From: Muribaculaceae bacterium Isolate-110 (HZI)
GTDB lineage: Bacteria > Bacteroidota > Bacteroidia > Bacteroidales > Muribaculaceae
Direction: 5' to 3'
Assembly: GCA_003762875.1 (NCBI GenBank)
Contig: RIBL01000001.1
Span: forward strand, 62,001-126,000
Length of the DNA stretch: 64,000 nt
The position numbers were made by a program, and so were the translations under genes. Below are positions 4,350 to 14,270 of this stretch, piece by piece; the stretch's first letter is position 1; the number at the start of each line of letters is the position of its first letter. A model generated the notes under the pieces. The model was not told the origin of the DNA and did no database searches. It worked only from the letters and a program-made list of their open reading frames with translations.

Positions 4350-5123
4350 CTAATAAATTGTAGCCAAGAGGTCGGCTACGGCTACGGCTGGAGTGGGGTT
4401 GCGCTCGAGACATTTGATGAAGAGCGAACCGATGATGGCTCCCGAGGAGTTGGCACATGCGTCGGCCATGGTGGAGGGGGTGGAGATGCCAAAACCTATC
4501 AGGCGTGGATGGTTCAGCTTCATAGAGGCTATGCGCCGGAAGTAGGCGGTCTGTTCGTCGGTGAAGCGGTCTTTGGTGCCGGTGGTGGAAGCTGTCGAAA
4601 CCATGTAGATGAATCCCGAGCAGTGCTCGTCGATGAGGTGTATTCGTTCGGACGATGTTTCGGGTGTGATGAGCATGATGAGGTCGATGCCATATTTCTC
4701 GCAAAGCGGTTTGTATTCGCGCATGTATTCGGCAAACGGCAAGTCAGGGATGATTATGGCGTCGATGCCTGTCTCGCGGCAGCGGGCAAAGATACGCTCG
4801 ATGCCGTAGCGGAGCATGGGGTTGAGATAGCCCATGAGCACGAATGGCATGTCTTTGACTTCTTTGCGGGCTTCGGCCACCTGATCAAACAGTAGTGAGA
4901 GACTCATGCCGTTGTCAAGGGCTATGGAGGAGCTGTGCTGTATGACAGTGCCGTCGGCCATGGGATCGGAGAAGGGCACTCCTATTTCTACCATGTCGAT
5001 GCCACGGCGGTCGAGTTCACGTATGATTTCGACGGTGGAGTCGAGGCGAGGGAAGCCGGCGGTGAGAAATACAGAGAGTATGTCGGAGGATTTACGTGAG
5101 AAGAGTGATTGAAGACGATTCAT
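4350..5123 (-). CDS. trpA: Tryptophan synthase alpha subunit
   Basis: 257 residues, a complete TIM barrel. It cleaves indole-3-glycerol phosphate to indole and glyceraldehyde-3-phosphate and passes indole to TrpB. The segment VEIGVPFSDPMADG holds the catalytic Glu46 and Asp57, equivalent to Glu49 and Asp60 of the E. coli enzyme. The phosphate-binding region includes LIGFGIS and AIIGS near the C-terminus. It is the last gene of the trp operon, 12 nt after trpF, and convergent with fabI. TrpA is separated from TrpB by five genes here, unlike the trpBA pair of proteobacteria. Confidence 0.97.
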   Translation of the reverse strand: MNRLQSLFSRKSSDILSVFLTAGFPRLDSTVEIIRELDRRGIDMVEIGVPFSDPMADGTVIQHSSSIALDNGMSLSLLFDQVAEARKEVKDMPFVLMGYLNPMLRYGIERIFARCRETGIDAIIIPDLPFAEYMREYKPLCEKYGIDLIMLITPETSSERIHLIDEHCSGFIYMVSTASTTGTKDRFTDEQTAYFRRIASMKLNHPRLIGFGISTPSTMADACANSSGAIIGSLFIKCLERNPTPAVAVADLLATIY

Positions 5124-5135
5124 TTTAGCGTTTTT

Positions 5136-5771
5136 TTAGAGATTAGAGTCGTTTAGCCGGTTGATGAATGAGGCTGCAAGCTGAGGATTTTTTGAGCCGG
5201 GCATAGTCTCGAAACGGCTGTTGATGTCTACGCCGGCCATGAGGGGCAGTGCGGACATGGCTTTGACGACGGCTTCGGCATCATCCGGACCTATGCCTCC
5301 ACTCAGCAGAAACGTGGTGGAGAGTGGATAGCTGTTGAGCAGACTCCAGTCAAATTTGCGCCCCGAGCCGCCGTGATTGGCTGTGAGGGTGTCGAGCACG
5401 AGCATGTCGACAGTTCCTTCATATGGTTTGACGTCTGCCCAGGCGATGTCTTTGTTTACACCGATGGCTTTCATGACACGGAGTCCTGCCCGACGGAGTT
5501 CGCGACATGTGTCGGGTGTCTCTTTGCCATGGAGCTGGATGGTGTCGAGGCCGTAACGCGAGGCGGTGTGAAGGATGTGGTCCACGGGGGCGTCGACAAA
5601 GACTCCGACGCGGCTTATATCGGCAGGCAGGGCGTTGACTACCGATGGAAGTAGGGCACAGGCGTTGCGCGGGGATGGTGCATAGAATATGAAGCCCATC
5701 ATGGAGGGGCGCAGAAGGGCTATCTGCCGTATGCTGTCAGGGTCGGAAAGACCGCAAATCTTGATTTCCAT
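5136..5771 (-). CDS. trpF: Phosphoribosylanthranilate isomerase
   Basis: About 211 residues from the ATG at 5771 (MEIKICGL), the usual TrpF N-terminus with the catalytic Cys6. The frame is open to 5810 but the added residues have no family support. Conserved segments include GFIF, VGVFVDAP, IQLHG, GGSGRKFDW, LSGGIGPDDA and GVDINSRFE. It performs the Amadori rearrangement of phosphoribosylanthranilate to CdRP. It is unusual in this compact operon in having 140 nt upstream, which holds a tetranucleotide repeat. Confidence 0.95.
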   Translation of the reverse strand: MEIKICGLSDPDSIRQIALLRPSMMGFIFYAPSPRNACALLPSVVNALPADISRVGVFVDAPVDHILHTASRYGLDTIQLHGKETPDTCRELRRAGLRVMKAIGVNKDIAWADVKPYEGTVDMLVLDTLTANHGGSGRKFDWSLLNSYPLSTTFLLSGGIGPDDAEAVVKAMSALPLMAGVDINSRFETMPGSKNPQLAASFINRLNDSNL

Positions 5772-5839
5772 AATTCCGGGGGATACAAAAAGGGGATACA
5801 AAAGTTTCAAAAGGACAGAAGAAACATAAGTTTTTAATT

Positions 5840-5911: not shown

Positions 5912-6688
5912 TCATAGATTGGTGTGGGGTGGGTTTAAAAAATCGCTTAAGGCACGGCCCGGGTCGGTGTGGCGCATGAAGGTTTCGCCTATGAGGAAGC
6001 CTCGGTAGCCAGCATCGCGGAGACGGTTGACTTCATCAATTGAGGTGAGTCCGCTTTCGGCTATTTTGACTACGTTGTCGGGCAACATGCGGGCGAGTGT
6101 CAGCGACAGGCCGGGGTCGGTGTGAAATGTGGATAGGTTGCGGTTGTTGATGCCTACCATGTCGACTGCCGGATAGAAGCGGGCCATCTCTTCGGCCGAA
6201 TGTAACTCGATGAGGACTTCGAGGTTCATGCTGTGGGCATAGTCGGTGAGACGGGTTATCTCGTCGAGCGAGAGTGCTGCCGCGATGAGCAGGATGGCGT
6301 CGGCTCCGTGACCGGCGGCTTCGGCTATCTGAAATTCACTTATTATAAAGTCTTTGCGCAGAAGCGGGATGTCGGTCAGAGTGCGGGCTACAGCGAGGTC
6401 GGTGAGCGCGCCTCCGAAGTAGGGTGTGTCGGTCAGTATCGAGCATGCCGAGGCTCCGGCCCGGGTATAGGATGGTATCACTTCGCTGACCATAGCCATG
6501 GGGTGAATATCGCCTTTGGATGGGGAGCGGCGTTTGAATTCGGCTATTATGCCTGTCGGGCTCTGGGTGAGTGCGCGGCTCATGGAGCGGTGCGTTCGGT
6601 CGGGAGCTGTAGCCGGGACTGTGTGGCGGGCCATGGCTTCGACTTCGCGTCGTTTGTTATCGACTATATGTCGGAGTATGTCAGTCAT
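5912..6688 (-). CDS. trpC: Indole-3-glycerol phosphate synthase
   Basis: 258 residues from the ATG at 6688 (MTDILRHIVDNKRREVEAMA). The frame stays open for 64 more codons upstream, but that part overlaps trpD and is not TrpC-like. Family motifs: IIAEFKRRSPSKG (substrate phosphate and catalytic Lys), LLRKDFII, ADAILLIAA, VEVLIELH-like NLEVLIELHS, VGINNRNL and AESGL. It closes the indole ring of CdRP. It is monofunctional and separate from TrpF, and starts 10 nt after trpD. Confidence 0.96.
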   Translation of the reverse strand: MTDILRHIVDNKRREVEAMARHTVPATAPDRTHRSMSRALTQSPTGIIAEFKRRSPSKGDIHPMAMVSEVIPSYTRAGASACSILTDTPYFGGALTDLAVARTLTDIPLLRKDFIISEFQIAEAAGHGADAILLIAAALSLDEITRLTDYAHSMNLEVLIELHSAEEMARFYPAVDMVGINNRNLSTFHTDPGLSLTLARMLPDNVVKIAESGLTSIDEVNRLRDAGYRGFLIGETFMRHTDPGRALSDFLNPPHTNL

Positions 6689-6698
6689 TAGAGTAATG

Positions 6699-7694
6699 TT
6701 AAGAGTTGATTTCGACAAATCGGCGGAAGGCACCGAGTGCAGCACCTGAATGAATTGATTCGCGGGCTTGACGGATGGCTTCGTCAATGGAGACTTCAGG
6801 CTCGAGTGTGTGTATGGCAAAGGCCGAGTTGGCCACAACACAGTCGGTCTGTGGCTTGGAGCCCTTGCCGGCGAGCACATTGTCGAAGATTACAGCCGAC
6901 TCGTCCACAGTGTCACCTCCGTAGAGCGATGCTTGTGAGGCGGTGTCAAATCCGAGTTGGGCCGGAGTGTAGAGCCGTTCGCCCTCGGATGAAGACACCT
7001 TGAAGGGGGATGTCAGCGAGATTTCATCGTATCCGTCGAGCGAGTGTACGACAGTACAGTCGATGCCCTCCTGCTGGGCTATGTAATTGTAGAGGCGGAG
7101 GAGCTTGAGGTTATAGACTCCGAGCAACTGATATTTGGGCATGAACGGATTGACAAGCGGGCCGAGCATGTTGAAGAACGTGCGTACTCCAAGAGCCTTT
7201 CGCACCGGTCCCACGCTCTTGAGTGCCGGGCTGAAAAACGGAGCGTGGAGATAACATACACCGCTGTCGGTGAGCGAGCGGTGGAGACGGTCGAGGTCGG
7301 CAGTGAATCTGACGCCATGCTGCTCGAGCACGTTGGAAGCTCCCGAGATGGAGCTCGCGCCATAGTTGCCATGTTTCACCACCTTGCGCCCTGTGCCGGC
7401 CACCACGAAGCATGAGGCGGTGGAGATGTTGAACGTGTTTTTGCCGTCGCCGCCCGTGCCTACGATGTCAATTGCCTTGATGTCGCCGAAATCGACGGGA
7501 TTGCGTCGTTCGAGTATGGCGTCGCGAAAACCTGTCAGTTCGTCGAGCGTGATGGAGCGCATCAGATAGACGGTCATGAAAGCCGACAGTTGCGAGTCGT
7601 TATATTTGCCGTCGGCGATGTTGAGCAGCACTCGGTGAGACTCATCGCGCGAGAGACTCTTGTGCTCAAACATTTTATATAGGAGTGATTTCAT
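6699..7694 (-). CDS. trpD: Anthranilate phosphoribosyltransferase
   Basis: 331 residues, the normal length. It transfers the phosphoribosyl group of PRPP to anthranilate. The glycine-rich PRPP site GTGGDGKNTFNISTASC is present, followed by KHGNYGASSISGASNVLEQ and the conserved LGPLVNPF segment. It is not fused to TrpG. It lies between trpG (34 nt upstream) and trpC within the trp operon. Confidence 0.97.
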   Translation of the reverse strand: MKSLLYKMFEHKSLSRDESHRVLLNIADGKYNDSQLSAFMTVYLMRSITLDELTGFRDAILERRNPVDFGDIKAIDIVGTGGDGKNTFNISTASCFVVAGTGRKVVKHGNYGASSISGASNVLEQHGVRFTADLDRLHRSLTDSGVCYLHAPFFSPALKSVGPVRKALGVRTFFNMLGPLVNPFMPKYQLLGVYNLKLLRLYNYIAQQEGIDCTVVHSLDGYDEISLTSPFKVSSSEGERLYTPAQLGFDTASQASLYGGDTVDESAVIFDNVLAGKGSKPQTDCVVANSAFAIHTLEPEVSIDEAIRQARESIHSGAALGAFRRFVEINS

Positions 7695-7728: not shown

Positions 7729-8292
7729 TCAGTGTCTGAGCCAGTTGGAAATCAGCTCTATGCCCTGAGGCGTGAGGATTGACTCGGGGTGAAACTGGAC
7801 CCCGCGTATATCGAGCGAGCGATGTCGTATGGCCATTATTTCGCCGTCGGGACTGACCGCTGTGACCTCGAGACAGTCGGGAAGCCCCTCACGGTCGATG
7901 ACCCATGAGTGATAGCGGCCCACCTCGATCATGGCGGGGAGACCGTCGAATATATAGTCGGGACATGTGACCGTGATGTCGGAGCGGATGCCGTGATACA
8001 CGTGTGAGAGATTGCGGAGACGTGCGCCGAAACGTTGGCCTATGGCCTGATGGCCGAGACAGATGCCGAGGATGGGCTTGGACTCGGCATAACGTTCGAG
8101 CAGAGCCGGGAGGATGCCTGCCTCGGAAGGGATGCCGGGGCCCGGAGATATGATGATTTTGTCAAAGTCCTCTATCTCGTCGAGCGTGATGCAGTCGTTG
8201 CGTCGCACAATCGGTTCAATGCCGAGCGAGCGGACGGCATGCACTATATTATAGGTGAAAGAATCGTAATTGTCGAGTATGAGCAGTTTCAT
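7729..8292 (-). CDS. trpG: Anthranilate synthase component II (glutamine amidotransferase)
   Basis: 187 residues, a class I glutamine amidotransferase that supplies ammonia to TrpE. The oxyanion segment SPGPGIPSEAG, the nucleophile Cys78 in GICLGHQAIG, and the His168/Glu170 pair in VQFHPESIL make the catalytic triad. No second domain is present. It follows trpE by 32 nt. In some bacteria the same subunit also serves PabB; no pabB lies in this window. Confidence 0.96.
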   Translation of the reverse strand: MKLLILDNYDSFTYNIVHAVRSLGIEPIVRRNDCITLDEIEDFDKIIISPGPGIPSEAGILPALLERYAESKPILGICLGHQAIGQRFGARLRNLSHVYHGIRSDITVTCPDYIFDGLPAMIEVGRYHSWVIDREGLPDCLEVTAVSPDGEIMAIRHRSLDIRGVQFHPESILTPQGIELISNWLRH

Positions 8293-8324: not shown

Positions 8325-9743
8325 TTATGCGCCGAAACTCTCGGCATAGTTAAGGGCGCGTGTAAGAGCCCCGAGTTTGTTGTTGGTTTCCTGGAGCTCG
8401 TTTTCCGGCACTGAGCGAGCCACCACACCTGCACCTGCCTGGAAGTAGAGATTATTGTCGTGGCTCAGGAACGAGCGGATGGTGATGGCCTGGTTGAGAT
8501 TGCCGTCAAATCCGATGTAGCCTATACATCCGCCATAGGTCATGCGCGAGTGAGGCTCGATGTCGTCAATCAGTTGCATGGCTCTCACCTTGGGCGCGCC
8601 GCTGAGAGTCCCGGCCGGAAAAGTGTCGGCAAAGAGGCGATAGACATCGGCATCGTCGGGCAGTTCGGCCTTTACGCGCGATACCATGTGGATGACGTGG
8701 GAGTAATATTGGATCTGACGCAGGAAGTCGATGCTTACCTTGCCTCCGCTCCGGCTCAGGTCGTTGCGGGCAAGGTCGACGAGCATGATGTGTTCGGCGT
8801 TTTCCTTCTCGTCTTCAAGCAAAGCGCGGGCCAGCTCATGGTCGCGTGCGTCATCGCCGGTGCGTCTGAACGTGCCGGCTATAGGGTCGATGTAGGCTGT
8901 GCCGCCATCCACTCTGAGATGGGTTTCAGGCGATGAACCGAAGATGCGGAAGTCGCTGAAATCGAAATAGAACAGGTAGGGTGACGGATTGACGCAACGC
9001 AGGGCACGGTAGACGTTGAACTCGTCGCCCTTGAACCGCTGGGCGAAGCGTCGCGAGAGAACTATCTGGAACACATCGCCACGGAGAGCGTGAGCGACTC
9101 CGCGTCGCACCATGTCCATGTACTGACCGTCGGTGACTGTTGATGTAGGCGAGGAGATGAGTGAGAATGAGTATTGTGCCACGTTGTTGTTGTGAATCAC
9201 GCTTACAATCTCGTCGATGGCCGAGGTGGTGCCGGGCAGTGCGTGTTCATAGACCGTCATCTGGTTTTTGTAATGGTTGACCTTTATGATGAAGCGGTAG
9301 AGGATATATTTCATGTCGGGCACGGATGCGAAACAGGCCTCTTTGGGCTGAATGTCGACACGCTCGAAGTAACGCACGGCGTCATAGGCCGTGTAGCCGA
9401 AGAGACCGCTCGCGCTGCTGTCAGAATCACCTTCGACAGAGTAGGAGGAGATGTACTTTTTCAGTTCGTCCACCACGTCGATATCATTGGTGACGGGGAT
9501 TATGGTGTCGGTAGAGTCGGGATAGGAGAGTGTTATCACGCCATTGTTGACCATGAAGCCTCCGATGGGATCTACGCCGATGAAGCTGACAGAGTTTTGC
9601 GAAGTGTGATAGTCGGAACTTTCGAGAAGAGCCGACTGAGGATAGAGGTCGCGAATCTTGAGATATATGCCCACGGGGGTCTCGAGGTCGGCCGGAATGA
9701 CGTGTGAGTTTATGAAGAGTGTATGTGGCATTGTTGTTTGCAA
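8325..9743 (-). CDS. trpE: Anthranilate synthase component I
   Basis: 472 residues (start at 9743; 9731, MPHTLF, is also possible). It converts chorismate to anthranilate with TrpG. The N-terminal segment SALLESSDYH corresponds to the LLES motif that binds tryptophan in feedback-inhibited enzymes. Chorismate-binding motifs are present: PIAGTFRRTGDDARDHELAR, HIMLVDLARNDLSRSG, FPAGTLSGAPKVRAMQLID and YGGCIGYIGFDG. Its stop is followed after 32 nt by trpG. The start is 3 nt after the trpB stop, suggesting translational coupling. Confidence 0.97.
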   Translation of the reverse strand: MQTTMPHTLFINSHVIPADLETPVGIYLKIRDLYPQSALLESSDYHTSQNSVSFIGVDPIGGFMVNNGVITLSYPDSTDTIIPVTNDIDVVDELKKYISSYSVEGDSDSSASGLFGYTAYDAVRYFERVDIQPKEACFASVPDMKYILYRFIIKVNHYKNQMTVYEHALPGTTSAIDEIVSVIHNNNVAQYSFSLISSPTSTVTDGQYMDMVRRGVAHALRGDVFQIVLSRRFAQRFKGDEFNVYRALRCVNPSPYLFYFDFSDFRIFGSSPETHLRVDGGTAYIDPIAGTFRRTGDDARDHELARALLEDEKENAEHIMLVDLARNDLSRSGGKVSIDFLRQIQYYSHVIHMVSRVKAELPDDADVYRLFADTFPAGTLSGAPKVRAMQLIDDIEPHSRMTYGGCIGYIGFDGNLNQAITIRSFLSHDNNLYFQAGAGVVARSVPENELQETNNKLGALTRALNYAESFGA

Positions 9744-9746
9744 AGT

Positions 9747-10940
9747 TTAGGGGTTGATAAATTTCATGTAGGTCTGCATGTCCTTGTCGCCACGTCCGGA
9801 GAGGTTGAGCACCACTGTGTCGTCGGGCGAGAATCTCATGATGTCGAGCACACCGAGCGCGTGTGACGACTCCAGGGCCGGGATAATACCCTCGGTGCGT
9901 GTGAGGCGCATGGCCGCGTCAAGAGCCTGTGAGTCGGTGATGGCCACGACCTCGCTGCGGCCCGATGAGGCGAGATAGGAGTGGAGAGGTCCGACGCCGG
10001 GATAGTCGAGACCGGCCGAGATGGAGTAGGGCTCTATAATCTGACCGTCGTCGGTCTGCATCACCATAGTGCGTGAGCCGTGTATGATGCCCTCGCTGCC
10101 CACCTGCATGGTGGCTGCGGTCATGTCGGTGTCCACTCCAAGTCCGGCCGCCTCGGCTGCTATCAGACGCACGGAGGGCTCGTGGATGAAGTGATAGAAG
10201 GCTCCGGCCGCATTGCTGCCTCCGCCGATGCAGGCTATTACGCAGTCGGGGAGCTCGGAGCCGGTCTGCGACAGTAGCTGGGCGCGAATCTCACGCGATA
10301 TGACCGACTGGAAATAGGCCACCATCTCGGGATAGGGGTGAGGTCCGACAGTGGAGCCTATGACGTAGAAGCTGTCGGGGTTGCAGCACCAGTAGCGTAT
10401 GGCCTCGTTGGTAGCGTCCTTGAGTGTGCGGTTGCCGCTTTGGACGGCCTCGACACGTGCACCGAGCATGAGCATACGGTCGACGTTGGGTTTCTGACGC
10501 GCCACGTCGGTGGCACCCATGAACACTATGCATTCCATCCCCATGAGAGCACAGGCGGTGGCGGTGGCTACGCCATGCTGTCCGGCTCCTGTCTCGGCGA
10601 TGATGCGGGTCTTGCCCATGCGCTTGGCAAGGAGGACAGAGGCCAGAGCGTTGTTGATCTTATGGGCTCCGGTGTGGTTGAGGTCTTCGCGTTTGAGATA
10701 GATGTTGGTGCCGTAATGTGCACTCAGACGATCGGCCCGGTAAAGCGGAGAGGGGCGTCCCACGTAGTCGCGGAGCAGGGTGTCGAGCTCGCGGTTGAAG
10801 TCGTCGTCGGCCGCATAACGGTAGAAGGCTTCGCGGAGCCGCTCGATGTTGCCGTGAAGTATCTCGGGGATGTAGGCTCCGCCGAAGTGTCCGTAGTAGC
10901 CCTCGTCGTCGACAGGGAGAATGGAGTGAAACTGTTTCAT
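9747..10940 (-). CDS. trpB: Tryptophan synthase beta subunit
   Basis: 397 residues, PLP-dependent, condensing indole with serine. Lys94 in REDLNHTGAHKINN binds the cofactor; GGGSNAAG binds its phosphate; the C-terminal SGRGDKD loop is typical of TrpB1. It is the first structural gene of the operon, and its ATG lies about 40 nt after the T-tract of the leader terminator at 10981-11025. Placing trpB first is characteristic of Bacteroidales trp operons. Confidence 0.97.
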   Translation of the reverse strand: MKQFHSILPVDDEGYYGHFGGAYIPEILHGNIERLREAFYRYAADDDFNRELDTLLRDYVGRPSPLYRADRLSAHYGTNIYLKREDLNHTGAHKINNALASVLLAKRMGKTRIIAETGAGQHGVATATACALMGMECIVFMGATDVARQKPNVDRMLMLGARVEAVQSGNRTLKDATNEAIRYWCCNPDSFYVIGSTVGPHPYPEMVAYFQSVISREIRAQLLSQTGSELPDCVIACIGGGSNAAGAFYHFIHEPSVRLIAAEAAGLGVDTDMTAATMQVGSEGIIHGSRTMVMQTDDGQIIEPYSISAGLDYPGVGPLHSYLASSGRSEVVAITDSQALDAAMRLTRTEGIIPALESSHALGVLDIMRFSPDDTVVLNLSGRGDKDMQTYMKFINP

Positions 10941-10980
10941 ATGATGAGTGTATTTTTTTTGTTGTCGTCGGGATGATTGT

Positions 10981-11025
10981 AAACAAAAACAAGGAGGCCA
11001 CCGATATAACTCGATGGCCTCCTTG
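10981..11025 (-). terminator. trp operon leader terminator (attenuator)
   Basis: On the transcribed strand a 15-bp stem (arms 11025-11011 and 11004-10990, one G-U pair) with a 6-nt loop is followed at once by TTTTTGTTT. It stands between the trp promoter and trpB, so it can only act on the trp transcript. The 5' arm contains GCCATCGA, complementary to TCGATGGC in the leader coding region (11096-11089). Confidence 0.9.
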
Positions 11026-11096
11026 GTATGGGTTGGTGTGTTATTTTTATTGTATGCCCGTAATTGGAAAAATCAGTCACAGGCAACTGCCATCGA
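11011..11096 (-). promoter_or_regulatory. Candidate antiterminator helix of the trp leader
   Basis: TCGATGGC at 11096-11089 (codons 18-20 of the leader peptide) is perfectly complementary to GCCATCGA at 11018-11011 in the 5' arm of the terminator, and can be extended by 3 bp past a 2-nt bulge. The two structures are mutually exclusive. The strand lies downstream of the tandem Trp codons, so a ribosome stalled there would leave it free. Inferred by reading only; no folding energy was calculated. Confidence 0.75.
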
Positions 11097-11148
11097 TATG
11101 TCTACCGATGCGCCACCAATAATTCTGATTGTTGAGCATATTTCTCAT
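11077..11148 (-). CDS. trpL: trp leader peptide with tandem Trp codons
   Basis: A 23-codon frame from ATG at 11148 to TGA at 11077, too short for ordinary ORF calling. The peptide begins MRNMLNNQNYWWRIGRH and ends with six more residues. Codons 11 and 12 (11118-11113) are TGG TGG. It lies about 12 nt after the expected transcription start and about 50 nt before the terminator stem. Two adjacent tryptophans in a short leader frame upstream of trp genes are the hallmark of ribosome-mediated attenuation. No Shine-Dalgarno sequence is evident, as is normal in Bacteroidota. Confidence 0.85.
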   Translation of the reverse strand: MRNMLNNQNYWWRIGRHIDGSCL

Positions 11149-11166
11149 AATTTCTTGTTTTCGTGG

Positions 11167-11197
11167 CAAAATTATGTCAAATTATCGTAACTGCCAA
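11167..11197 (-). promoter_or_regulatory. trp operon promoter
   Basis: On the minus strand TTG (11197-11195) is followed after exactly 20 nt by TAATTTTG (11174-11167), a consensus Bacteroidota promoter. Transcription would start near 11160, just before the trp leader frame. Confidence 0.85.
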
Positions 11198-11259
11198 ATG
11201 TTTTTGAAATATTTTTTATCGAAGCGGAGTGAAACGCCTGTGACAACGGTCATTGCGGA

Positions 11260-11766
11260 CTATTTGCCGTGGCTGTTGATAATCCTGTTGATAGCCTGGA
11301 CTGTCGGGTTGACAGCCACGATTTTGCCTGAGGGGTTGAGGAGATAGGACGAGTATCCACCCTCGGGATGATAGCCCGGCGATATGCCTCGGGCCTTGAT
11401 GTCGGCGATGTGAAACTGGGTGAGCGAGTCGAGACCGTCGCGACGCACTATCTCGTCAAAGAGTCGGCGGTTGTCGTCGGTGTTGACCGAGAGCAGTCGG
11501 AGGTCGGGACGCTTGTGGGCGCGGAAGTAACGGTCATATTCGCCGGCTGCGATGCGTGACACCGCGTTGTGCGAGTCCCAGAAGTTTACGAGTACATATT
11601 TGCCTTTGAGGTCGGATGTGGAGAGCTGAGTCGAACTGTTGGCTGCTTCAAGGAGTCTTGGCGGACCCGAGAGTCCGGGAGCGGTGCTCTCGATGCGTCC
11701 GGAAAATATCCACACGACTGTGGCGAATATTATGACCAGAGATATGAATATAAGAAATTTTTTCAT
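11260..11766 (-). CDS. Thioredoxin-fold membrane-anchored protein lacking CXXC
   Basis: 168 residues with an N-terminal membrane anchor (KKFLIFISLVIIFATVVWIF). The rest follows the TlpA/AhpC-TSA fold: SDLKGKYVLVNFWDSHNAVSR aligns with the usual FWASWCGPCR region, and LLNPSGKIVAVN with the C-terminal strand and hairpin. The CXXC site is replaced by Ser65-His-Asn-Ala68 and there is no cysteine anywhere in the protein, so disulfide chemistry is excluded. It lies upstream of the trp promoter on the same strand, with 62 nt between its stop and the -33 box, and is divergent from the btu operon. Role unknown. Confidence 0.8.
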   Translation of the reverse strand: MKKFLIFISLVIIFATVVWIFSGRIESTAPGLSGPPRLLEAANSSTQLSTSDLKGKYVLVNFWDSHNAVSRIAAGEYDRYFRAHKRPDLRLLSVNTDDNRRLFDEIVRRDGLDSLTQFHIADIKARGISPGYHPEGGYSSYLLNPSGKIVAVNPTVQAINRIINSHGK

Positions 11767-12251: not shown

Positions 12252-14270
12252 ATGGAAAACCGTAAAAGCATGTCATTAACGCTACTTGTGGCGGCCGCAC
12301 TTCTCCCTGTCAAGGGGTGGAGCAGCCCCGAGTTGCCCGACATAGTCGCGACCGGCACCGAGCAGAAAGTTGGCGAGGTGACTGTCACGGCCAGGAGGTC
12401 GCCCGTAAGAGTGTCGACAGGAGTGGCTGTACAGTCGCTCAGCGGTCAGAACATAGCCGAGCTCGGTATTCAGAACATAGCCGACGCCGTGAGACGCTTT
12501 GCCGGCACCAATGTGAGGGATTATGGCGGCATAGGCGGACTTAAGACCGTGTCGGTGAGAAATATGGGAGCCTCGCATACTGGTGTGAGTTATGACGGAG
12601 CCCCTGTGAGCAACTGCCAGGCCGGTCAGATAGACATCGGCCGGTTCTCGCTTGACAATGTGTCGATGCTCTCGCTGGCAATAGGGCAGGACGAGAATCT
12701 GTTGCAGCCTGCCAAGCTCTATGCGTCGGCTGCCGTGCTCAATATCATTACCAACACTCCGGAGTTTGAGGCGGGACGCAGTTCGGCCTTTGAAGTGCAG
12801 ATGAAGGGGGGCTCATTCGGGTATGTCAACCCGATGGCCCGGTGGTGGCAGAAGGCCGGAAGCCGTGTGAGGACCTCGCTTGACGTCAATTTCATGCGGG
12901 CCGACGGTAATTACCCTTTCACACTTGTAAACGGCAAATATGTCACACGGGAGCGACGCAACAACTCGGCCATAGATTCGTGGCATGGCGAAGCCAATGT
13001 GTATTACGATGTGCCCGGAGGGGGTGACCTGCAGGTAAAGGGTTATTATTTCTACTCCAAACGCGGATTGCCGGGAGCTGTGACGCTCTACAATCCGGTG
13101 TCGAACGAAACGCTTTGGGACAAGAACGGATTTGTGCAGGCAAGATATAGCTGCGATTTCTCGTCTAAATGGCGTTTTCAAACTTTGGGCAAATATAATT
13201 ACGGCTGGAACCGCGACAGGGAGCATGGGCCGCAGTTTGCCGGCGGAATGTATCAGGCCGTGCACACTCAGAACGAGTATTACCTGTCGGCCACGGCCGA
13301 GTATCGCCCTGTGACGGGTCTGTCGTTGGCTCTTGCACAGGACGGGACAGTCAACACTCTCAGCAGCACGATGGGCTCGTGTCCCTTTCCTACCCGCTAT
13401 ACATCGCTGACAGCTCTCACGGCACGATGGCGCAGGGGCCCGCTGACGGCTACCGGCACTGTGGTGGGGACGTATATCACCGAGAGAGTCAGGGAGGGGA
13501 CAGCTCCCGAAGATATAAAGCGGCTGTCGCCGAGTCTGTCGGTGAGCGTGCAGCCGTGGAAGGAGGAGATGCTGTTTGTGAGAGGCATGTACAAGTCGAC
13601 ATTCCGCACTCCGACATTCAACGACCTGTATTATGACCGTCTCGGCAATCGCTCGCTGCGCCCCGAACGGGCCAATGAGTATGACCTCGGAGTGACGTGG
13701 AGCGGGAAGTTCTGTCAGGTCATGGACTATTTTTCGGTGACGGCCGACGGTTATTTCAACGAGGTGACCGACAAGATAGTGGCTTTCCCGACCACATATG
13801 CCTGGAAGATGGCCAATTTCGGTAAGGTACATGTGACGGGTGTGGATTTCACCATGGCTACGGCTTTCTCGCTCCCCCGCGGCATCAACGTCTCGCTCTC
13901 GGCCGCCTATACATGGCAGCGGGCTGTCGATCTGACCGACCCCGAGGCAAAAAACTATAAGGAGCAACTGCCTTACACGCCCGAGCACAGCGGCAACATG
14001 GCCGTGACGGTCAAGAGCCCGTGGGTGACTCTCGGCTATTCGCTCGTGGGGGTGGGCAAGAGGTATTATCTCAGCCAGAATATTCCCGTCAACGAGATAG
14101 AGGGTTATGTGGAGCAGACTGTGACGCTCGGGCACGAGTTGAGCCTGGGAGGGTGCAGGCTGGGTCTGCGCTGTGAGCTTGTCAATCTGGCCGACAGGCA
14201 GTATGACGTGATAAAGTATTACCCCATGCCTGGACGTTCGTGGCGTGTGGTGGCAAATGTGAAATTTTAA
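12252..14270 (+). CDS. btuB: TonB-dependent cobalamin receptor, BtuB-like
   Basis: 672 residues. A signal peptide (MSLTLLVAAALLPVKGWS) is followed by a TonB-box-like VGEVTVTA. The plug domain spans about 50-170 and includes GGIGGLKTVSVRNMGASHTG and SVLNIIT-like ASAAVLNIITNTPEF. The C-terminus ends with an aromatic strand, RVVANVKF, as in outer-membrane barrels. It lacks the N-terminal carboxypeptidase-like extension of SusC proteins. The riboswitch upstream and btuFCD downstream identify the cargo as cobalamin. It would import B12 handed over by the BtuG-like lipoprotein, powered by TonB. Confidence 0.92.
   Translation: MENRKSMSLTLLVAAALLPVKGWSSPELPDIVATGTEQKVGEVTVTARRSPVRVSTGVAVQSLSGQNIAELGIQNIADAVRRFAGTNVRDYGGIGGLKTVSVRNMGASHTGVSYDGAPVSNCQAGQIDIGRFSLDNVSMLSLAIGQDENLLQPAKLYASAAVLNIITNTPEFEAGRSSAFEVQMKGGSFGYVNPMARWWQKAGSRVRTSLDVNFMRADGNYPFTLVNGKYVTRERRNNSAIDSWHGEANVYYDVPGGGDLQVKGYYFYSKRGLPGAVTLYNPVSNETLWDKNGFVQARYSCDFSSKWRFQTLGKYNYGWNRDREHGPQFAGGMYQAVHTQNEYYLSATAEYRPVTGLSLALAQDGTVNTLSSTMGSCPFPTRYTSLTALTARWRRGPLTATGTVVGTYITERVREGTAPEDIKRLSPSLSVSVQPWKEEMLFVRGMYKSTFRTPTFNDLYYDRLGNRSLRPERANEYDLGVTWSGKFCQVMDYFSVTADGYFNEVTDKIVAFPTTYAWKMANFGKVHVTGVDFTMATAFSLPRGINVSLSAAYTWQRAVDLTDPEAKNYKEQLPYTPEHSGNMAVTVKSPWVTLGYSLVGVGKRYYLSQNIPVNEIEGYVEQTVTLGHELSLGGCRLGLRCELVNLADRQYDVIKYYPMPGRSWRVVANVKF

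Follow-up and report, generated by a model that had tools for sequence, protein, structure and literature searches.

In the window, by which we mean the whole stretch of 64,000 nucleotides that was analysed, the operon trpBEGDCFA is preceded on the minus strand (10981-11198) by a promoter, a short leader reading frame, segments 1-3 and a terminator. We conclude that this region is very probably a ribosome-mediated transcription attenuator, in which read-through into trpBEGDCFA would depend on charged tRNA-Trp. An attenuator had been proposed in an initial annotation of this DNA, and comparison with related loci strongly supports that reading.

Organization of the leader region

The following features were assigned from the sequence and, for the terminator arms, also from folding. 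Family models were used for the trp genes.

11198-11195 (-): -33-like promoter element TTTG, 20 nt before the -7 element
11174-11167 (-): -7 promoter element TAATTTTG (TAnnTTTG), with the leader ATG 18 nt downstream
11148-11077 (-): leader ORF MRNMLNNQNYWWRIGRHIDGSCL, 23 codons and a stop
11118-11113 (-): tandem Trp codons TGGTGG, leader codons 11-12
11111-11104 (-): segment 1 (protector) GCATCGGT, just 3' of the Trp codons; its pairing partner is segment 2
11096-11089 (-): segment 2 TCGATGGC
11025-11011 (-): terminator 5' arm
11018-11011 (-): segment 3 GCCATCGA, inside the terminator 5' arm; exact complement of segment 2
11004-10990 (-): terminator 3' arm, after the loop
10989-10981 (-): T-tract TTTTTGTTT, directly after the terminator 3' arm
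11260-11766 (same direction as the trp genes): thioredoxin-like gene, upstream neighbour of the leader
9747..10940 (-): trpB (tryptophan synthase beta), first structural gene; TIGR00263, 575 bits, cut-off 392
8325..9743 (-): trpE-like (anthranilate synthase component I); best match TIGR00564, 410 bits, below the cut-off of 518
7729..8292 (-): trpG; TIGR00566, 190 bits, cut-off 121
6699..7694 (-): trpD; TIGR01245, 302 bits, cut-off 199
5912..6880 (-): trpC-like; NF001377, 251 bits, just below the cut-off of 260
5136..5810 (-): trpF-like; NF002298, 151 bits, below the cut-off of 215
4350..5123 (-): trpA; TIGR00262, 215 bits, cut-off 102

The elements TTTG and TAATTTTG correspond to what we take to be the -33/-7 promoter form of Bacteroidota. 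The terminator hairpin comprises 15 pairs (-28.5 kcal/mol), and trpB begins 40 nt beyond the T-tract. The true start of the trpC-like gene probably lies downstream of 6880, as the family match starts near residue 65. The initial annotation had listed a promoter, a 23-codon frame with TGG-TGG, an 8-bp segment and a 15-bp terminator with T-tract before trpB; all were found in the sequence in that order, and the 8-bp segment is indeed perfectly complementary to the terminator 5' arm, with an exact match to GCCATCGA. The protector, segment 1, is an extra part that this list had lacked; its hairpin with segment 2 was calculated at -12.1 kcal/mol.

Taken alone, the 8-mer TCGATGGC is not rare (7 copies in the window, 3.64 expected), so that the case depends on the ordered arrangement and on its conservation. 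Folding of the 180-nt leader gave a z score of -7.56, with none of 200 shuffles as good. Within the terminator 5' arm (11025-11011, minus strand) lies AAGGAGG, a Shine-Dalgarno-like string that is absent from most relatives compared; such sites are hardly used in this bacterial group. The window also holds a cobalamin riboswitch (RF00174, 11902-12095, plus strand, 117.9 bits) upstream of a plus-strand gene (12252-14270) that by eye resembles a TonB-dependent receptor.

Conservation and covariation in Muribaculaceae

The family under study, f1, was equated with Muribaculaceae on the basis of the named loci L033 and L034, which share TrpB identity and leader peptide with L012 and L013. TrpB was present in 47 of the 149 family genomes (E <= 1e-50), and tryptophan synthesis looks patchy across the family. 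For 45 trpB loci with at least 300 nt of upstream sequence, a leader was counted where an ORF of up to 50 codons, beginning with ATG and containing WW, occurred no more than 330 nt upstream of trpB. Such leaders were found in 39/45 loci, compared with 26/4500 dinucleotide shuffles, 0/45 reverse strands and 7/386 window tiles; the Trp codons are thus conserved in related Muribaculaceae, as the initial annotation had anticipated. L061 represents a probable fortieth WW leader but carries an N at its likely stop and was therefore excluded from the helix tests. The leader was absent from five of the 45 loci, with one Trp codon in L010 and none in L022, L023, L065 and L066.

Promoter and initiation signals were counted in 83 leaders from every group, including three that were dropped later. 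The motif TAnnTTTG occurred at most 60 nt upstream of the leader ATG in 66 of these (3% in shuffles), at a median position of 21 nt before the ATG. Initiation without a Shine-Dalgarno site, as claimed for the window, agrees with the absence of any such sequence upstream of its leader ATG and with the presence of a Shine-Dalgarno-like 4-mer before the ATG in only 5/83 leaders.

The 39 family loci and two close MAG loci (L031, L032) make up 41 family-type leaders, in 29 of which segment 2 starts 15-19 nt past the Trp codons. Across the segment 2 core CGRTGG, 23 loci share one frame (giving mostly YRW) and five loci, among them the window and L005 (IDG), share another. Since the frame differs among species, it appears to be the RNA, not the peptide, that is conserved. 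This observation bears on control by the leader peptide itself, be it translation-coupled, Rho-type or exerted by a trans-acting peptide. Such control would suit the conservation of the peptide at its Trp codons, and peTrpL of Sinorhizobium is reported to be a trans-acting peptide (PMC7298713). We nevertheless regard it as highly improbable in place of attenuation, with a second role being possible: outside the Trp codons the peptide tracks the RNA segments, frame changes included, and a terminator is present behind each of the 80 leaders analysed.

A first test for an antiterminator considered only the terminator 5' arm and reached p < 0.05 in 30 of 45 leaders. The 15 failures comprised all seven non-family loci and 8/38 family-type loci. 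Because every non-family locus had failed, pairing with the loop and 3' arm was then tested. The first test had been run without L011, L016, L040, L050 and L073, whose terminators were mis-called; a better terminator finder restored L011, L016, L040 and L073, while the ORF of L050 was out of range. Across the 41 family-type leaders, segment 2 scored 19.54 with its own 5' arm and 15.51 (sd 0.49) with swapped arms, and 0/5000 permutations were as high, the helix being the best match per locus, a choice that favours finding one and leaves swapped and shuffled controls equally free. Pairing with the loop and 3' arm showed no preference for the own partner in these leaders (819/5000). Assigned by rule, 28 of them were of the clear 5' arm type and ten were ambiguous (L008, L012, L013, L015, L026, L028, L029, L067, L068, L076); three scored for loop and 3' arm (L030, L064, L073).

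Covariation was examined in an alignment of 26 of the 41 rows, from which L024 and L070, both clear 5' arm types, were omitted. The antiterminator helix had 92.3% of its cells paired and 12 doubly changed, a figure favoured by the picking of rows for a clear match of at least 7 bp between segment 2 and the 5' arm. For the terminator helix the values were 95.1% and 14, and for the protector helix 77.5% and 11; slid control helices were 11-60% paired. The protector also passed the swap test in the family type (0/3000). Covariation of antiterminator and terminator helices in relatives, the check suggested in the initial annotation, was hence found, as was a preference for own over swapped arms. 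The same annotation would have given up the attenuator had the short frame and the alternative pairing lacked conservation in relatives; both turned out to be conserved.

These data also weigh on a rival explanation, in which the terminator simply ends transcription of the upstream gene, or acts constitutively, and the short ORF is unrelated to it. The thioredoxin-like gene is co-directional and the terminator sits between it and trpB, as this explanation would have it. However, a promoter-like element and the conserved Trp leader separate that gene from the terminator, segments 1, 2 and 3 covary, and WW leaders far exceed their frequency in shuffles, which leaves it very little probability.

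R1, a model of the family-type leader, was run on the 149 family genomes. Of the matches listed at E <= 1e-5, 34 in all, 32 lie immediately upstream of trpB; 23 of these 32 had been used in building R1 and nine had not. One of the other two, in G119, comes from the edge of a contig that carries no trpB. The other, in G123 (E 3.5e-7), was rejected, as by eye it is an ordinary terminator lacking a Trp leader. In the window's own genome, R1 scored strongly once (E 2e-17) and weakly at two other places (E 0.01 and 0.12).

Folding with a masked ribosome and proposed mechanism

The fold of the full leader shows the terminator, as thermodynamics demands. We therefore folded transcripts truncated where the antiterminator partner had just been made, with the ribosome represented by a mask over the 15 nt preceding the A-site codon and 12 nt counted from that codon onward (an assumed footprint). 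Helices of less than 6 bp were left unscored (3/41 family-type and 2/39 other leaders). In family-type folds the antiterminator formed in 35/38 loci with the ribosome stalled at the last Trp codon, in 3/38 with the ribosome at the stop (L016, L071, L074) and in 4/38 with no ribosome; it was missing from the stalled state in L029, L069 and L076. The modelled folds are consistent with the claims that a ribosome stalled at the Trp codons frees segment 2 for the antiterminator and that one at the stop covers it and allows termination.

Moving the A-site through the window's leader from -8 to +11 codons relative to the last Trp produced the antiterminator only from -3 to +3, with eight pairs at -3 to +2, six at +3 and three at +4. 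Among the 38 family-type loci it was present in 26-35 at -3 to +3, in six at +4, in none up to +10 and in 1/21 at +11. At positions 4-8 codons upstream of the last Trp codon, a masked ribosome still left the antiterminator in 8-12/38 loci, a background from which the window is free. In the window, the terminator is far more stable than the segment 2:3 helix (-28.5 versus -12.5), so that the switch would have to work kinetically. Kinetic operation is accepted for known attenuators.

From the computed parts, their conservation, the covariation of three helices and the masked-ribosome folds, we infer the transcription start, stalling, kinetics and response to tryptophan as follows. The first transcribed base would lie a few bases past TAATTTTG, and translation of the leader would be initiated without a Shine-Dalgarno site. 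When charged tRNA-Trp is scarce, the ribosome would stall at codons 11-12 and cover segment 1, leaving segment 2 free; while the terminator 3' arm is still to be transcribed, segment 2 could then capture segment 3 in the upper part of the 5' arm, and RNA polymerase would continue into the operon. The segment 2:3 helix and the terminator would thereby be in kinetic competition. When Trp is plentiful, the ribosome would proceed to the stop and cover segment 2, and the terminator would form. With no ribosome, segment 1 would hold segment 2 and the terminator would form likewise. In most loci, the predicted stalled, at-stop and ribosome-free folds fit this classical attenuation logic, which had been proposed for the window. 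Four structural hallmarks of a trpL-type attenuator were found: a leader ORF with tandem codons, an intrinsic terminator before the first gene, a covarying and mutually exclusive antiterminator, and a protector.

Other Bacteroidales and known leaders

A search at the order level gave a TrpB match in 116/247 genomes, and 27 loci plus 60 fetched regions were examined, a part of the listed matches. Four were lost for want of a TrpB start; L084 has 2 nt upstream. By hand count, 32/83 loci carry a plausible WW leader, L182 included. The 39 non-family leaders analysed consist of 31 from this search and eight from a named collection (Myroides included). The WW ORFs of L135 and L138 were judged part of upstream genes and dropped. 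L182 was dropped as well, the script having chosen another ORF; by eye, its second ORF and a ATCGTGAT/ATCACGAT pairing look real.

Many non-family leaders end in WW(W)(R/H)LQLQKS-stop. A common form of their segment 2 is GTCGTGAG, which encloses the TGA stop codon; in 34/39 leaders the distance from the Trp codons to the start of segment 2 is 16-20 nt. Scored against the terminator loop and upper 3' arm, segment 2 reached 17.96 with its own partner and 16.11 with swapped ones (0/5000), while pairing with the 5' arm was unsupported in these leaders (4970/5000). Two-sided changes were seen in L137 (GTCGTAAG/CTTACGAC), L159 (GACGTTGT/ACAACGTC) and L192 (GTCGTAAGTT/AACTTACGGC). In masked folds the antiterminator formed in 34/37 loci in the stalled state, 1/37 at the stop and 4/37 with no ribosome, against a background of 13-16/37 with the ribosome 4-8 codons early. 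The protector swap test was not significant for other Bacteroidota (493/3000), a possible reason being that there is little variation on either side.

On a TrpB tree, all 28 clear 5' arm rows belonged to the family or to the close MAGs L031 and L032, and 25 of the 28 loop rows lay outside the family; the tree was built quickly, many of its forks are weak and the type labels need several changes on it, so that our claim is limited to where the types lie. L067 (G083), with a family label and an ambiguous type, groups by TrpB with loop types of other Bacteroidales, for which transfer or misplacement is a possible reason. We consider it fairly likely that Bacteroidales trp operons use two wirings of the same leader logic: segment 2 would take the loop and upper 3' arm (a loop toehold) in most non-family leaders and the 5' arm in Muribaculaceae, at a much alike distance from the Trp codons, so that the antiterminator target has changed and the input has been kept. 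At the phylum level, where 169/198 genomes had a match, a WW leader was found in 0/29 loci examined (L105-L133). In several distant loci trpB seems, by eye, to lie directly behind coding sequence.

Among known systems, the closest is Rfam RF01692 (Bacteroid-trp), a Bacteroidete tryptophan peptide leader RNA according to Table 1 of Weinberg et al. 2010 (PMC2864571). Like the window, it has a Trp-codon leader ORF ahead of trp genes in Bacteroidota. The model matched 6/12 non-family loci and 0/6 Muribaculaceae loci given to it; the window was unmatched at the gathering score (49 bits), and 0/149 family genomes exceeded the cut-off in a run with stricter filters, which can lose weak matches. The best family score, 40 bits in G083, comes from immediately upstream of trpB of L067. 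RF01692 stops in the terminator 5' arm and includes neither antiterminator. Loci matched by RF01692 show pairing of segment 2 with loop and 3' arm, a feature found in this analysis that is no part of the Rfam definition; the window's segment 2 instead takes the 5' arm.

The enterobacterial trpL combines tandem Trp codons, a protector, an antiterminator that takes the terminator 5' arm, and a terminator. The window shares all of these, but differs from it in having no Shine-Dalgarno-like site, an operon that starts with trpB, and a segment 1 located after the Trp codons. Rfam gave no match to an enterobacterial trp leader in the window, and RF00513, which we take to be the Trp_leader model of Proteobacteria, was not among the window's matches. 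RsaJ, the best match at relaxed threshold, was dismissed as a chance match (27 bits, cut-off 100). T-box and TRAP control trp genes in other phyla, but, despite this precedent, a T-box, TRAP or other RNA sensing tRNA or Trp directly has next to no probability here, as no such Rfam family was found in the window at the gathering threshold or in 10900-11300 at E <= 10 and as the Trp codons sit in a conserved reading frame.

For other amino acids, a Phe/Tyr-rich leader (e.g., MTRFYAYPFFYYFYFDKK) preceded pheA in 7/8 loci of the genus, the eighth, from the window's genome, being cut by the contig end. By eye, a terminator-like hairpin follows the ORF in L210, L211, L212, L213, L214, L216 and L217, which we read as a second attenuator; ACGGGAT seems to lie opposite ATCCCGT of the terminator 5' arm. 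No consistent leader was found for hisG or ilvD in the genus (eight loci each). L195 has a single His-rich ORF upstream of hisG, MYRTNRHNSSAVMTLHHGHHHHEQSAIHIV, which is absent from the other seven hisG loci.

For amino-acid operons of Flavobacterium psychrophilum, structured 5' regions and hints of leader peptides have been described; the section concerned names no trp case and lists pheA and hisG among the elements conserved in other genera (PMC9723704). Also on record are a predicted attenuator ahead of pheA in B. thetaiotaomicron (PMC1173090) and leader-like sORFs in this species (PMC7366714). In 2010, the authors of PMC2965389 knew of no leader-peptide systems demonstrated outside Proteobacteria and Actinobacteria. 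The open-literature titles and abstract starts listed included neither a Muribaculaceae trp leader nor a trp antiterminator that takes the loop and 3' arm. As a kind, trp leader-peptide attenuation is already known, in Bacteroidota too (RF01692). As far as searched in the open literature, what appears new is the Muribaculaceae variant missed by Rfam and its antiterminator partner, which differs from that in other Bacteroidales.

For annotation, it follows that the current Rfam model misses Muribaculaceae members. From the two wirings it may be learnt how an RNA switch can move to a new pairing partner without loss of function. In classical attenuation a ribosome has to follow RNA polymerase closely. 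A conserved attenuator with covarying helices in gut Bacteroidota, whose leaders here mostly lack Shine-Dalgarno-like sites, would predict transcription-translation coupling in these bacteria and may serve as a simple reporter for it.
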